The translations under genes and the position numbers were made by a program. Shown here piece by piece: positions 7,230-12,706 of a DNA stretch of 64,000 nucleotides. The DNA lies in NCBI GenBank assembly GCA_022822325.1, contig JAJEBW010000045.1, forward strand, positions 1 to 64,000, in the 5' to 3' direction. Below the pieces are notes generated by a model that saw only the letters and a list, made by a program, of their open reading frames with translations, was not told the origin of the DNA and did not search any database. Numbering within the stretch: position 1 is the first letter of the stretch; every line of letters begins with the position of its first letter. Source of the stretch: Gemmatimonadota bacterium (GTDB taxonomy: Bacteria; Gemmatimonadota; Gemmatimonadetes; Longimicrobiales; Gaopeijiaceae).

Positions 7230-7760
7230 TCACTCGCTCCCCGTCAGCGCCGCGACGATCTCGTCCACCGCGTCGGCGGCCATCCGCTCCAACTCCCCGG
7301 GGCGCCGGTTTTGAACCGGGTGCGGCACCCACACGATCGCGGGCTCGAAGCCGAGCGATGGAATCTGGTGGGCCGCCGCATCGCGAAAGGCGGTGGTGGC
7401 GACGAGGACCCCGGGGATGCCGAGATCGTCCAGGGCCTTGATGTCATGCAGACCGCATGATGTGCAGGATCCTCAATCGGCCAGCGCCTCCACAACGACG
7501 TCCGCCCCCTCGGCGATGTCCCCGACGATGGCCGGGGTGGCGGGCTTGGCGTTGGTCGGCTTCGCGAAGCGGGCGGTCGCGATGCCGCGGGCGCGCAGCC
7601 GGGGTTGGAGATAATCCAGGAACTCGTCGGCGCGCGCCTTGCCGATGTCGAAGAGCGCCACCGTCCTGCCATCGAGAGAGGGCGGGGGAGAGCGGCGGGG
7701 GCGTAGCGCGGAGGCGGTCTCGGAGGTGGGGTCGTGGAGGAGGGTGGGGGAAGCGTTCAT
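7230..7760 (-). CDS. UGSC-family selenoprotein, in-frame UGA = selenocysteine 96
   Basis: A 176-residue protein if the UGA at 7475-7473 is read as selenocysteine. The reading frame continues without a break for 80 more codons to the UGA at 7232-7230. The motif at the UGA is U96-G-S-C99-T-S-C102, the signature of the UGSC family of (seleno)proteins. Similarity to the family is present on both sides: an N-terminal DPTSE...LDGRTVALFDIGK.RADEFLDYL part, and a C-terminal LHDIKALDDLGIPGVLVATT ... VWVPHPVQNR part. A bacterial SECIS hairpin lies directly after the UGA (separate entry). The family is presumed redox-active (selenol/thiol); its substrate is unknown. Conventional gene finding would truncate it at residue 95 or miss it. 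It lies 87 bp downstream of a thioredoxin-fused partner on the same strand. The genome must carry selABCD elsewhere for this to work. Confidence 0.9.
7441..7475 (-). promoter_or_regulatory. Bacterial SECIS element of the UGSC selenoprotein
   Basis: Immediately 3' of the UGA (7475-7473) the mRNA can fold a 6-bp stem UCAUGC/GCAUGA (7460-7455 with 7449-7444) closed by the five-base loop GGUCU (7454-7450). Exactly 18 nt separate the UGA from the loop. The exposed GG(U) in the loop is what SelB recognises, and the E. coli fdhF SECIS has the same GGUCU loop at, as I recall it, the same distance. A weaker lower helix (CCU with AGG) may extend the stem. The element lies wholly within the coding sequence, as is normal for bacteria. 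Confidence 0.85.
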
Positions 7761-7847: not shown

Positions 7848-9668
7848 TCAGTCGGCGATTTCTCGCGTCACGGGATGGGATTCCTCGAGGAGGCGGCCGC
7901 CGGGCCAGCCCGAGAGGATGGCCGAGAAGAGTCCCGCCGGACCCCCGGCCCGGACCAGGAGCAGGCCCTCCCGGTGAAACTTCGGCAACCGCTCGCCCCG
8001 GCGCGACCTGGGCATTCCTTCGGCGACGCCCCGCGCTCCAACGATCACCTCCTCGCCGCTGACGACGAGCTCGCGGTGCAGCGCATCGGCAATCCGCCTC
8101 CGCGTCCATCCGGCCTCGCGGTAGGTCGCATAGTGTTCCGGCGAGATGACCAGCACCGCCGGGGCCCATTCGCAGAGCTTCGGGTGTCCCACCGCCCGCA
8201 GCGCCATCGCCAGCGACCGGGTGAGCTCGCCCGGCCTCCGCGCCCTCTGGTCGCTTACGCCCTGAACCCCTTCCCCCGCGAACACCGTTACCGCGCTCCT
8301 GCCCGGCGCCACTCCGCGCGAAACGGAAAGCGGTTCCCAATGCGGGTCGCTCTCGTCCTCGGCAAAGCAGAAGGTGTACTTGCCCGGCGATCCCAGCGTC
8401 GCGCGATCGATCTCGCCCGGACGCCCGCCGCCGACATTGCGCACCACCAGATTCACCGCCCGCCCGATCGTCGCGTTGGCGCGGTTGCCCTGTCCCAGCG
8501 CATTCAGCCCCGCATTCATCCCGATCCGCCGCGCGATCGGTCCGTTCACGATGATGACCGGGCCGGAGTGGCAGGTGCTGCAGGTCACTCCGTGCAGGGT
8601 GAAACCGGGATCGAGGGCGGCCTCCAGCGCAGCCAGCACCACCGGCAGGTACTCGGGGCGGCACCCGGCCATGACCGCATTGATCGCCGCCTTCTCGATC
8701 GTGCAGGGCGCCAGCTTGGGGGGAATGAGGCCGACCACCTCATGCGGGTCGCGCCGCGTGCCGCCCAGCATTCGCAGAATTCGTTCCGGCGTCGGGGGGA
8801 CGACGGGCAGGCCGTCGGTCCAGCCGCGATCGTAGCAGAGTTCGACCGGATCGGTCTCGGGGGCCGCCTCGACTCTCCGCGCGCGGATCCCCGTCTCGCC
8901 GTAGCGCACCGTCAGCCGCTCGCGCATCCCGGGCTCCTGCGTTCGCGAGCCGCACCCGGGACGGTGGGGCGGGAGGCCTTCGCCCAGGTCGGCGATTCCG
9001 GTCAGCGCGCGCCAGTCGTCGCGGATCCACCCGATGGCGCGGCCGGTCTCGGTGCCGGTTCGGGACGCCTGGTGGGTCGGGAACGTGGCGTTCGTTGGCG
9101 ACGCGCGGTTGGTTCGGGGCGCGGGACTTGTTGGGGGCGCGAGGCTTGTTCGGGACGCGGGACTTGTTGGGGGTGCGAGGCTTGTTCGGGACGCAGCGTC
9201 GGGGCTGTTCTCCCTTTCGTCGGCAGGGTGCGGTGCGCGGTCGCCAGGCGCGGTGGGCGGCGGCGCAGCGGCCGGGTCCATCCCCGGCTCCATCCGGATC
9301 AGCGTCGGGACGGTTTCGATGCCGAGGCGAAAGGAGCGCTCCAGGGCGCGGTCGTCCACGGCGAGGGGCGCGAGCCCGGGACCGAGAAAGGCGCCGTCGT
9401 CCTGCCAGACGATGGCGAGGTCGCGGCCGGAATGCGCGATCTCGTGCAGGACGGGAAGGACCAGGTGGCAGGTCTCGCATTCGTCCTTGACCACGACCAC
9501 GAAGCGGGGGGCGGCGGGTTGGCCGCCAGTGGACGCACTCCGAGCGGCATGATCCACGGACCGCCGACCATCGCGGTGGGCGTTTCCCGCGCGGGAGGTC
9601 GCGGGAGCCGGGGCCGCGCCATGATCGGGCGGTGGTTGGGGGGTGCGAGGGCCGTCGAGCGGGGTCAT
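7848..9668 (-). CDS. Thioredoxin-like domain fused to a UGSC-associated uncharacterised domain
   Basis: A 606-residue protein. Residues of about 54-145 look like a thioredoxin fold: strand FVVVVKDE, redox motif C64-E-T-C67, and a cis-Pro region IETVPTLIRM. A low-complexity Pro/Ser/Thr linker follows (about 150-205, including two 12-residue repeats). The C-terminal part of about 370 residues has conserved blocks CYDRGWTDGLPVVPPTPER, AAINAVMAGCRPEYLPVV, IVNGPI, NALGQGNRANATIGRAV and GSPGKYTFCFAEDE. I know this as a widespread hypothetical family found beside UGSC proteins but not as a characterised enzyme. It has its own CxxC (C363-S-T-C366). The gene ends 87 bp before the selenoprotein start, suggesting co-transcription and a thiol/selenol relay. 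The start at 9668 gives a non-conserved N-terminal tail and is uncertain. Confidence 0.75.
   Translation of the reverse strand: MTPLDGPRTPQPPPDHGAAPAPATSRAGNAHRDGRRSVDHAARSASTGGQPAAPRFVVVVKDECETCHLVLPVLHEIAHSGRDLAIVWQDDGAFLGPGLAPLAVDDRALERSFRLGIETVPTLIRMEPGMDPAAAPPPTAPGDRAPHPADERENSPDAASRTSLAPPTSPASRTSLAPPTSPAPRTNRASPTNATFPTHQASRTGTETGRAIGWIRDDWRALTGIADLGEGLPPHRPGCGSRTQEPGMRERLTVRYGETGIRARRVEAAPETDPVELCYDRGWTDGLPVVPPTPERILRMLGGTRRDPHEVVGLIPPKLAPCTIEKAAINAVMAGCRPEYLPVVLAALEAALDPGFTLHGVTCSTCHSGPVIIVNGPIARRIGMNAGLNALGQGNRANATIGRAVNLVVRNVGGGRPGEIDRATLGSPGKYTFCFAEDESDPHWEPLSVSRGVAPGRSAVTVFAGEGVQGVSDQRARRPGELTRSLAMALRAVGHPKLCEWAPAVLVISPEHYATYREAGWTRRRIADALHRELVVSGEEVIVGARGVAEGMPRSRRGERLPKFHREGLLLVRAGGPAGLFSAILSGWPGGRLLEESHPVTREIAD
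9120..9191 (-). repeat. Two tandem 36-bp units in the interdomain linker
   Basis: Units 9120-9155 and 9156-9191 differ at one base (C/T at the 20th position) and keep the reading frame, encoding a 12-residue Ser/Pro/Thr/Arg-rich repeat. A decayed partial unit lies on the lower-coordinate-numbered side near 9100. The repeat sits in the flexible linker between the thioredoxin-like and C-terminal domains, so linker length is probably variable between strains. Confidence 0.85.
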
Positions 9669-9752: not shown

Positions 9753-12500
9753 CTATCCCAGCCAGTAGCTCAGCTTCACCATGAAGACATCCGAACCCGG
9801 CTGGTCGAAGAGGGTGCCCAGGTCGTTGCGGAAGGAGAAGGCGCCGTCGCGGCTGTAGTGATCGCGTCCCTGCGACCAGACCACGAAGAGCGTCGAGCCG
9901 GGCCGGTATTCCCAGCGCAGCACCGCATTGGAGCGCAACTGCTTGAAGCTGAAGTCCGGTCGCCGGAAGGCTTCCTCGCTGCCGTCCCCGTCGATGTCCG
10001 CCAGGAGCGAACCCTCACCGTCGGCGCGCGTGCCCACGGGCGCGAAGCGGTCGGCGAAGCGCTCGGCCCGGGGCTCCTCCACCCGCCGGAAGTCGTCGTA
10101 GCGGCCCGCCGAGACGAAGGGCTGCGCGTAAAGCTGCAGCGAGAGCGTCGGCGAAAAGGTCCAGTCGGCGCGCGCGGTCAGCCCGGCCGTGGTCTGGTTC
10201 AGCCGCCCGAAGAGGTAGTCGTTCGCCTCCAGACCGGTGTCGGCAAGGTCGGAATCGCCGGCGACGGGGAATCTTCCCACCCACTGCACGCCCTCGTCGG
10301 TCCAGTTGACGAAGGGTCCGGCGGAGATCGTTGCGCGCGAAGACGGCCTCCAGCGCAGATTGCCGTCGGCCCCGAATCGGTGCGAATCGGTGTCCGGGTT
10401 CACCCCCCAGTTTCCCCCCGCCTCCACCTGCAGCGCCTTGCGCGAATCGGTCCACATCCCGAACCACCCGCCCCACGACGGGTCCCGCCGCAGCATCGGG
10501 CCGCCCCGCAGCGAGGCGTTGCTCAGTCCCGAACTCTCGCGCATCGCTCCCGCGTAGGCGCCCCAGAAGTTCTTGAAGGTCACGTTGCCGTTGACGTTGG
10601 CGCCCTTCTGAAAGGCCTCGCCGCCCAGGCTGTACGGAGTCCAGGCATTGAAGTTGACGCTCCAGCTTCGCAGATGCTCGGTGGGCTGGTAGTGCTGGTA
10701 GGCGACCCAGACGAAGGGGCTGACGAAGTCGGTCTCGCGCATGAAGCCGAGGTCGTTGGAATCGAAGCCGGGCGAGCGCGCCATTCCGCCGCCGGCGAAG
10801 CGCCAGAACCCGCCCGCGAGCTTGCCGAAGAGCGCCGAAGCCGCCCAACCGCCCAGCGAGGTGCGCCCGGGGTCGAACTCGGTGTGACCGGCGTCGGGAC
10901 GCTGGAAGTAGCGCGCGGGGGAGCGTTGGGTGCGAGCGACCGCCTCGGCCGAGCCGCGCACCGTCGAACCCAGGAGGTAGCCCTGAAACATGAAGCGGTC
11001 ATCGCCGAATCGGTGCCGCGCATCGATGCCGCCGGTGTAGGCGCGGTCGTGCAGATCGAGGGCCGCGGCGCCGCTCCGGTCGCGGGCGGTCCAGGTGGAG
11101 ATGACGCCGACCGCGCTCCGGCCATCGCGGAAGTCGCGGACCAGGCGCGCCATTCCATGGTGCCCCGCCGGTTCGACGAGCTGGTCTCCGAGCGGTCCCG
11201 ATGCGTCGGCGGTCTGCGCATTCTCCTGGGCCGTGAGCGCGTGCAGCAATCCGATCGACCAACCCGACCGCGTCTTCCCCGAGAGCTTGGCGGCGCCCAG
11301 GATCCGCGTCCGTTCCGGCGCGTCGGCGTAGGCGGCGCCCCGTGCCCGGCCGCGCGGCGCCCGCCCGATCCGCCGGGAATAGAAGAGTCCCTCGCTGGCC
11401 ATGTCGCCGTCGCCCTCCGAGAAGCGGAAGGCGAAGATGTTCGATCCCTCCGCGAAGAAGGGCCGTCGTTCGGGCAGGAAGGTCTCGAAGGCGGTGAGGT
11501 TGACCTGCGCCGGATCGGCCTCCACCTGCCCGAAGTCGGGATTGATCGTCAGGTCGAGGGTGAGGTCGGTCGTGATCCCGTACTTGACGTCCGCGCCCGC
11601 CGCCGAGGAGAGATCGCGGGGATCGTGGAAGGGATCGGCGGCGCTCCCGGGCGCGGCCTCCATCCGCAGGAGCGAGTAGGGCATGACCTCCACGCGGGCC
11701 GGGGGCGAGAGATCGCGCAGCCCCTCCAGCTCGCCGAAGCGCGAGACCAGCGCGCCGTCGCCCTTCGAGATCGGGGCCCAGAGGCTGCGTTCCATGTGCC
11801 GGGCCACGAAGCGGGCGAAGTTGATTCCCCAGGTCTGCCGCGCGGCTCCGTCGAAGCGCAACTGCGAATACGGGATCCGGAACTCGGCGGTCCATCCCTC
11901 CTCGTCGGTCTGCGTCGCCACCTCCCAGACCGCGTCCCAGGCGTCGTCCTCCTGCACATCGTCGTACATGTAGCCGTCGGACTTGACCCCCGCCGGATTG
12001 ACCCCGAAGCGAAAGGCCGTGCGGCGGTCGTGGTAGCTGTCGATCACCACGTCCACCCAATCGGAGTGCGGCCGGTCGTCGCGGCGTGCCAACTGCGCCA
12101 CGATCGAGTCGGGCGCCGAATCGAAGGCGCGAATGCCCACGAAGATTGCCTCGGCGCCATAGAGCACCCGGACTTCGGTTCTCTGCGAGGGACGCGCACC
12201 CTCGTCGGGCTCGAAGACCACGAAGTCCCGCGCGACGGCGGCGGCCGCCCAGTCGGCCTCGTCCAGAAGGCCGTCGATCCGGGGCTCCGCTCCGCCCAGC
12301 CTGTGAGCCGGCAACGACGGCGGCGCCGCGCGCGTCCCGGCGGCGGTCGCAACGGCCGCCTTTTCGGGCGACTGACCCGGGAGGGCCTGGGGCGCTCCAC
12401 CCACCACCGCCACCGCTCCGCCCAGCCACCACACCGCCCCCCGCACACCCATCCTCGTCCCCAGCCCCCGCACCCACGTCGAGAAATGCACCACGTCCAT
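9753..12500 (-). CDS. CBM9-like / DUF5916 outer-membrane protein
   Basis: A 915-residue protein. The ATG at 12500 is chosen because a strong GGGGGAGGGG site lies 7 bp upstream; an ATG at 12539 has none. A signal segment (AVWWLGGAVAVVGGA) ends near PGQ. Residues of about 70-260 match the CBM9-like fold: PRIDGLLDEADW, YGAEAIFVGIRAFD, RRTAFRFGVNPAGVKSDGYMYDD, and a WTAEFRIPYSQLRF strand. The rest matches DUF5916, with DLTLDLTINPDFGQVEADPA, NLTAFETFLPERRPFFAEGS and many amphipathic strands ending in YWLG, as in an outer-membrane beta-barrel. In this phylum the family is common and unassigned, possibly linked to carbohydrate or peptide uptake. It is transcribed divergently from the dapF homologue. 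Confidence 0.85.
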   Translation of the reverse strand: MDVVHFSTWVRGLGTRMGVRGAVWWLGGAVAVVGGAPQALPGQSPEKAAVATAAGTRAAPPSLPAHRLGGAEPRIDGLLDEADWAAAAVARDFVVFEPDEGARPSQRTEVRVLYGAEAIFVGIRAFDSAPDSIVAQLARRDDRPHSDWVDVVIDSYHDRRTAFRFGVNPAGVKSDGYMYDDVQEDDAWDAVWEVATQTDEEGWTAEFRIPYSQLRFDGAARQTWGINFARFVARHMERSLWAPISKGDGALVSRFGELEGLRDLSPPARVEVMPYSLLRMEAAPGSAADPFHDPRDLSSAAGADVKYGITTDLTLDLTINPDFGQVEADPAQVNLTAFETFLPERRPFFAEGSNIFAFRFSEGDGDMASEGLFYSRRIGRAPRGRARGAAYADAPERTRILGAAKLSGKTRSGWSIGLLHALTAQENAQTADASGPLGDQLVEPAGHHGMARLVRDFRDGRSAVGVISTWTARDRSGAAALDLHDRAYTGGIDARHRFGDDRFMFQGYLLGSTVRGSAEAVARTQRSPARYFQRPDAGHTEFDPGRTSLGGWAASALFGKLAGGFWRFAGGGMARSPGFDSNDLGFMRETDFVSPFVWVAYQHYQPTEHLRSWSVNFNAWTPYSLGGEAFQKGANVNGNVTFKNFWGAYAGAMRESSGLSNASLRGGPMLRRDPSWGGWFGMWTDSRKALQVEAGGNWGVNPDTDSHRFGADGNLRWRPSSRATISAGPFVNWTDEGVQWVGRFPVAGDSDLADTGLEANDYLFGRLNQTTAGLTARADWTFSPTLSLQLYAQPFVSAGRYDDFRRVEEPRAERFADRFAPVGTRADGEGSLLADIDGDGSEEAFRRPDFSFKQLRSNAVLRWEYRPGSTLFVVWSQGRDHYSRDGAFSFRNDLGTLFDQPGSDVFMVKLSYWLG

Positions 12501-12706
12501 CGTCAACCCCTCCCCCTTCTCGAACCCTCCCGGGCCCATCCATGTCGTCTGTTGTCAGCGTTGCGGCGCCCCGGCGAAGTTTCTCTTCGGCGATCCGTCC
12601 CCGGCGGCGCGTCCCGGCGATTTTGTCGGGCGGCCGGGTTTCCGCGACGGGGCCGAAGGGCGGTTTTCCGCAACGGGCCGATAGGACGAGGGAGGGGGAG
12701 AAAAGG

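Follow-up and report, generated by a model that had tools for sequence, protein, structure and literature searches.

The window analysed here is a stretch of 64,000 nucleotides, and on its minus strand, at 7230..7760, lies a gene for a predicted UGSC-family selenoprotein of 176 residues with selenocysteine (Sec) at position 96, an assignment that draws on translation, the PF24696 and NF041046 profiles and 63 homologous loci. The reading frame begins with an ATG at 7760, meets an in-frame TGA at 7475-7473 (codon 96) and then stays open for 80 further sense codons before it ends at another TGA (7232-7230). An earlier reading of this DNA, made from the sequence alone, had described both the frame open for 80 codons past the first TGA and the motif U-G-S-C-T-S-C at residue 96 of the read-through product, and our coordinates and translation agree with both. 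The first TGA (7473..7475, minus strand) is taken as the selenocysteine codon (U96) by reference to the homologous loci and to the Cys found at the equivalent position elsewhere. Shortly after it, at 7444..7460 on the same strand, is a SECIS-type hairpin with the stem TCATGC/GCATGA and the loop GGTCT, identified by conservation, covariation and comparison with Escherichia coli fdhF. Upstream of the UGSC gene, and also on the minus strand (7848..9668), is a second gene, referred to below as the partner, which was delimited by its adjacency to UGSC, a thioredoxin (Trx) match and a gene fusion in a relative (L047). Its product comprises a Trx-like domain with a CxxC motif (residues 56-131, approximately), a linker and a domain of about 380 residues; the start codon at 9668 is provisional; translation may in fact begin further downstream. 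Further upstream, at 9753-12539 (minus strand), a DUF5916 protein with a CBM9-like N-terminus is encoded, and this gene keeps its place in 13 related loci.

The gene is one more member of the already known UGSC selenoprotein family, as the sequence-only reading had recognized. The Pfam profile PF24696 (UGSC) matches residues 9-173 with an E-value of 4.4e-35 and 121.8 bits, against a gathering score of 25. The corresponding NCBI model, NF041046 (UGSC family (seleno)protein), is matched over its full length (1-147) but is a near miss at 120.1 bits, the cut-off of 125 being a curated threshold for automatic naming at NCBI and not a biological feature. Despite this shortfall we still assign the protein to the family because of the Pfam match and the motif. 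The family was first reported in 2008 from Global Ocean Sampling (GOS) data, with 255 Sec and 21 Cys forms, and ranks among the commoner families of selenoproteins in metagenomes from aquatic habitats (PMC2398784). It has been included in reviews of 2022 and 2026 (PMC9312934, PMC13188914), and UGSC-motif selenoproteins have also been reported from a handful of genomes that carry a tRNA-Sec with a CUA anticodon (PMC5330540). The window member shares with the described family (PMC2398784; PF24696; NF041046; PMC13188914) the profile match over residues 9-173, the UGSC motif and the exchange of Sec for Cys, and differs from it in nothing basic; it is a Gemmatimonadota protein and falls slightly below the NCBIfam cut-off. 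In the open-access literature, we found no paper linking UGSC selenoproteins to Gemmatimonadota. PADLOC returned nothing for the UGSC protein or its partner.

The internal TGA and the coding sequence on either side of it are conserved. All 63 UGSC loci first collected (drawn from the source genome, its relatives and the genome_contigs set, with some representing the same contig twice) have TGA at the Sec site and conserved protein sequence both before and after it. A search of 395 genomes of the phylum gave the same picture, in that each of the 48 with a match above the PF24696 cut-off carries copies with exactly one internal TGA. Across 35 homologue comparisons, the mismatch rates at codon positions 1, 2 and 3 were 0.19, 0.14 and 0.42 before the UGA and 0.21, 0.17 and 0.46 after the SECIS stretch; the similarity of the two patterns indicates that selection at the protein level acts on the downstream half just as it does on the upstream half. 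Sister genomes were checked for loss of the downstream half, and the frame was full-length across the TGA, with no such loss in any of them. Eight of 22 genomes of the same genus have no UGSC gene match and yet keep selA; as the match is wholly missing in these eight, the absence concerns the whole gene and not a break at the UGA. The family motif, [U/C]-G-S-C, appears as UGSC in the window gene and its relatives and as CGSC in full-length homologues from Natrinema and Halalkalicoccus (haloarchaea) and Embleya (Streptomycetaceae), so that the comparison of Sec and Cys forms suggested by the sequence-only reading did find Cys at the Sec position; outside Gemmatimonadota, this comparison sampled plasmids and genome_contigs loci. 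Such Sec/Cys exchange is classical comparative evidence for a selenoprotein.

The hairpin after the UGA had been called a textbook SECIS, with a six-base-pair stem and the loop GGUCU exactly 18 nt past the UGA. The local order is TGA-GGATCCTGCACATCATGC-GGTCT-GCATGA, in which 18 nt separate the UGA from the loop and a perfect 6-bp inverted repeat closes the loop. Thus, the description holds for loop, stem and spacing, but the free energy alone is unremarkable (z = -0.72; 35 of 200 shuffled sequences fold as well or better), and the significance of the hairpin therefore rests on its conservation among relatives. In 38 distinct homologous sequences, whose kinship inflates the counts, the stem cells were paired in 97.8% of cases, compared with 93.7% in shuffles and 0.9-45% in slid controls. 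The central pair of the stem is A-U in 17 of these sequences, G-C in 17 and G-U in four; in most of them, its two bases are the last letters of a Ser codon and a His codon. The loop-closing pair is C-G in 37 sequences and G-C in the remaining one (L082), which is a double change, and a double change at the same pair is present in the copy on an Acidovorax plasmid (TCGTGG-AGTGT-CCACGA). That the helix is real is supported, at the level of sequence comparison, both by the slid controls and by the double changes.

Third-position mismatches fall to 0.24 in the 11 codons that follow the UGA, and the Ser codon of the stem, TCA, accounts for only one of 238 Ser codons in five long genes of the window, in which GGT makes up 8.5% of Gly codons. 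Three loop types were found (GGTCT, AGTTT and AGTGT), all with G at the second position. The element therefore has the features by which a bacterial SECIS is recognized, namely a hairpin within the coding region soon after the UGA, a G in the apical loop and conservation in homologues. The likeness to the E. coli fdhF SECIS noted in the sequence-only reading, in loop and in distance, was also confirmed, as a 42-nt fdhF stretch (TGA, 18 nt, GGTCT) matches 5,368 of 5,426 E. coli genomes, with the top matches annotated as fdhF. The two elements share a GGTCT loop beginning 18 nt past the UGA; however, their stem sequences differ, and the window hairpin has six uninterrupted pairs.

The source genome (G000; 3.48 Mb, 94% complete) contains all four of the genes, selA, selB, selC and selD, that together define a bacterial Sec-decoding system and that the sequence-only reading had proposed to look for. 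selA is on contig C47 (474 bits, cut-off 268), selD on contig C16 (374 bits, cut-off 125), and selB (289.5 bits, cut-off 242) is on contig C28, as is the gene for tRNA-Sec (79.7 bits, cut-off 47), to which ARAGORN assigns the anticodon TCA. Among the UGSC-bearing relatives, 28 of 30 have selA; none was detected in the other two, G053 and G059, of which G059 is 76% complete. G053 carries two UGSC genes, one on contig C81 (L043, loop AGTTT) and one on contig C62 (L091, loop AGTGT). C81 is only 3.7 kb long and its UGSC copy resembles proteobacterial ones, and misbinning of this contig is therefore likely. The selD gene of the source genome (L015) itself has an in-frame TGA, in the motif GUACK, with a possible hairpin containing G-U in its loop about 33 nt downstream, and SelD is thus probably a selenoprotein too; on that reading, the genome has at least two genes of the recoded-UGA kind.

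Two other explanations of the internal TGA have to be weighed. If it were a true stop, the gene would be a pseudogene or would encode a truncated protein of 95 residues, with the downstream frame a relic. The open reading frame under table 11 does end at this TGA as a 95-aa product, and the Acidovorax plasmid homologue is annotated as ending there. However, the codons beyond it keep a protein-like substitution pattern in the 35 homologue comparisons, every homologue retains both halves together with the TGA, and the Cys homologues read straight through, which leaves a true stop extremely improbable. Equally remote is the reading in which UGA specifies another amino acid, either Trp (code 4) or a residue inserted by near-cognate read-through. 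The frame would be open just as well under such decoding, but UGA also terminates the UGSC gene of the window and its upstream neighbour, residue 96 is Cys and not Trp in the homologues examined that lack the TGA, and a conserved SECIS-type hairpin follows this particular UGA in a genome that encodes tRNA-Sec(UCA), SelA, SelB and SelD. We have accordingly rejected pseudogene, sequencing error and UGA-as-Trp as readings of this gene. The sequence-only reading had concluded that the organism decodes UGA as Sec, and the sel genes, the conserved TGA, the covarying hairpin and the Cys homologues all support it. On this comparative evidence, the UGA at codon 96 is almost certainly decoded as Sec, and the gene should be regarded as a genuine UGSC-family selenoprotein gene.

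The partner gene is an almost constant neighbour of UGSC. A partner homologue adjoins the UGSC gene in 61 of the 64 first loci, and the remaining three (L030, L031 and L070) are truncated where their contigs stop. In most relatives, the stop codon of the partner overlaps the UGSC start as ATGA; the window has a gap of 87 nt. The partner gave no Pfam or NCBIfam family match, and its domain of about 380 residues is without a model in these collections; a sequence search of solved structures matched the N-terminus to thioredoxins only. The linker of the window protein is long and of low complexity; LPVVPPT and NAVMAGC are among the conserved blocks of the C-terminal domain. In haloarchaea, this C-terminal domain adjoins the CGSC gene without a Trx-like domain, and in one relative (L047, 1501-3120 of G059 contig C84) a divergent UGSC domain with the motif U-S-T-C seems to form a single in-frame fusion with the partner domain. 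Neighbourhood and fusion are good evidence, at the level of gene arrangement, for a joint function of UGSC and its partner. The L047 fusion is probably of the kind noted in 2008 as UGSC/Unknown_1 (PMC2398784), where a UGSC domain is likewise joined to a second conserved domain. The genes are fused in L047 and adjacent in the window, where the partner, which we infer to be the same as Unknown_1, has the Trx-like domain as an N-terminal addition. The structural match list for the partner model is taken up by its Trx-like domain; class I fumarate hydratase and cyclic amide hydrolases were considered for the large domain and rejected, the Foldseek matches (TM approximately 0.2) being too weak.

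For the UGSC protein itself, a Trx-like fold was proposed in the 2008 GOS paper (PMC2398784). A sequence search of solved structures found no relative of the protein. The AlphaFold2 model (pLDDT 93) is a (beta-alpha)5 sandwich in which U96 follows the strand 88-94 and precedes the helix 97-112, and its best structural matches are generic Rossmann/flavodoxin-like, receiver and PurE-type domains. This predicted flavodoxin-like fold speaks against the Trx-like one. Profiles for selenoprotein B of glycine reductase and its relatives (GrdB, GrdF and GrdH) give weak but recurrent matches that cover the Sec motif, with 32 members out of 37 showing one (best E-value 6.5e-5), and the cut-offs of TIGR01917, NF040794 and TIGR01918 are not reached (at most 18.4 bits, against 65 to 800). 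UGSC proteins also share the UxxCxxC spacing described for GrdB in a 2026 review (PMC13188914). They differ from selenoprotein B in having about 40% of its length, in scoring far under the curated cut-offs and in that no grd operon was seen adjoining them. No GrdB chain is among the UGSC fold matches listed, which carries no weight either way. To the known family, the present analysis thus adds a conserved partner gene, a revised fold prediction and a weak resemblance of the Sec motif to that of selenoprotein B.

The pairing of UGSC with a protein that combines a Trx-like domain and a domain of unassigned family, together with the fusion, provides a concrete hypothesis for the UGSC reaction. 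With the UGA at codon 96 almost certainly decoded by SelB and tRNA-Sec, under the direction of the SECIS hairpin within the coding sequence just after it, the product would be a subunit of a redox enzyme encoded by both genes. Its reactive centre may consist of U96 with Cys99 and Cys102 of the UxxCxxC motif, U96 probably forming a selenenylsulfide with one or other of the two. The CxxC of the Trx-like domain of the partner might then re-reduce the selenenylsulfide and so return electrons, while the large domain might supply substrate binding or catalysis. We put this functional model forward tentatively, as a hypothesis that is less likely to be right than wrong. It is somewhat more doubtful still that UGSC and its partner make up an undescribed two-subunit selenoenzyme with a built-in Trx-like electron donor, in which UGSC would be a distant, shortened relative of selenoprotein B acting on another substrate. 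The selenoprotein could, instead, work alone as a simple oxidoreductase of the thioredoxin or peroxiredoxin type, with its neighbour merely co-regulated. The fold proposed in 2008 would suit such a role, but the predicted (beta-alpha)5 structure speaks against it, and the partner adjoins UGSC in nearly every locus and is fused to it in L047; we regard independent action as distinctly unlikely.

Finally, members of this family are easily overlooked, because standard gene calling stops the UGSC gene at its UGA; the homologue on the Acidovorax plasmid is an example. On that plasmid (p2-T1 of Acidovorax sp. T1, NZ_CP021650.1; L113, 2986-3495), the gene is annotated only as far as the in-frame TGA, as a hypothetical protein of about 96 residues. 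A SECIS-like hairpin follows the TGA there too, and the partner reading frame after the UGSC gene is missing from the gene table.
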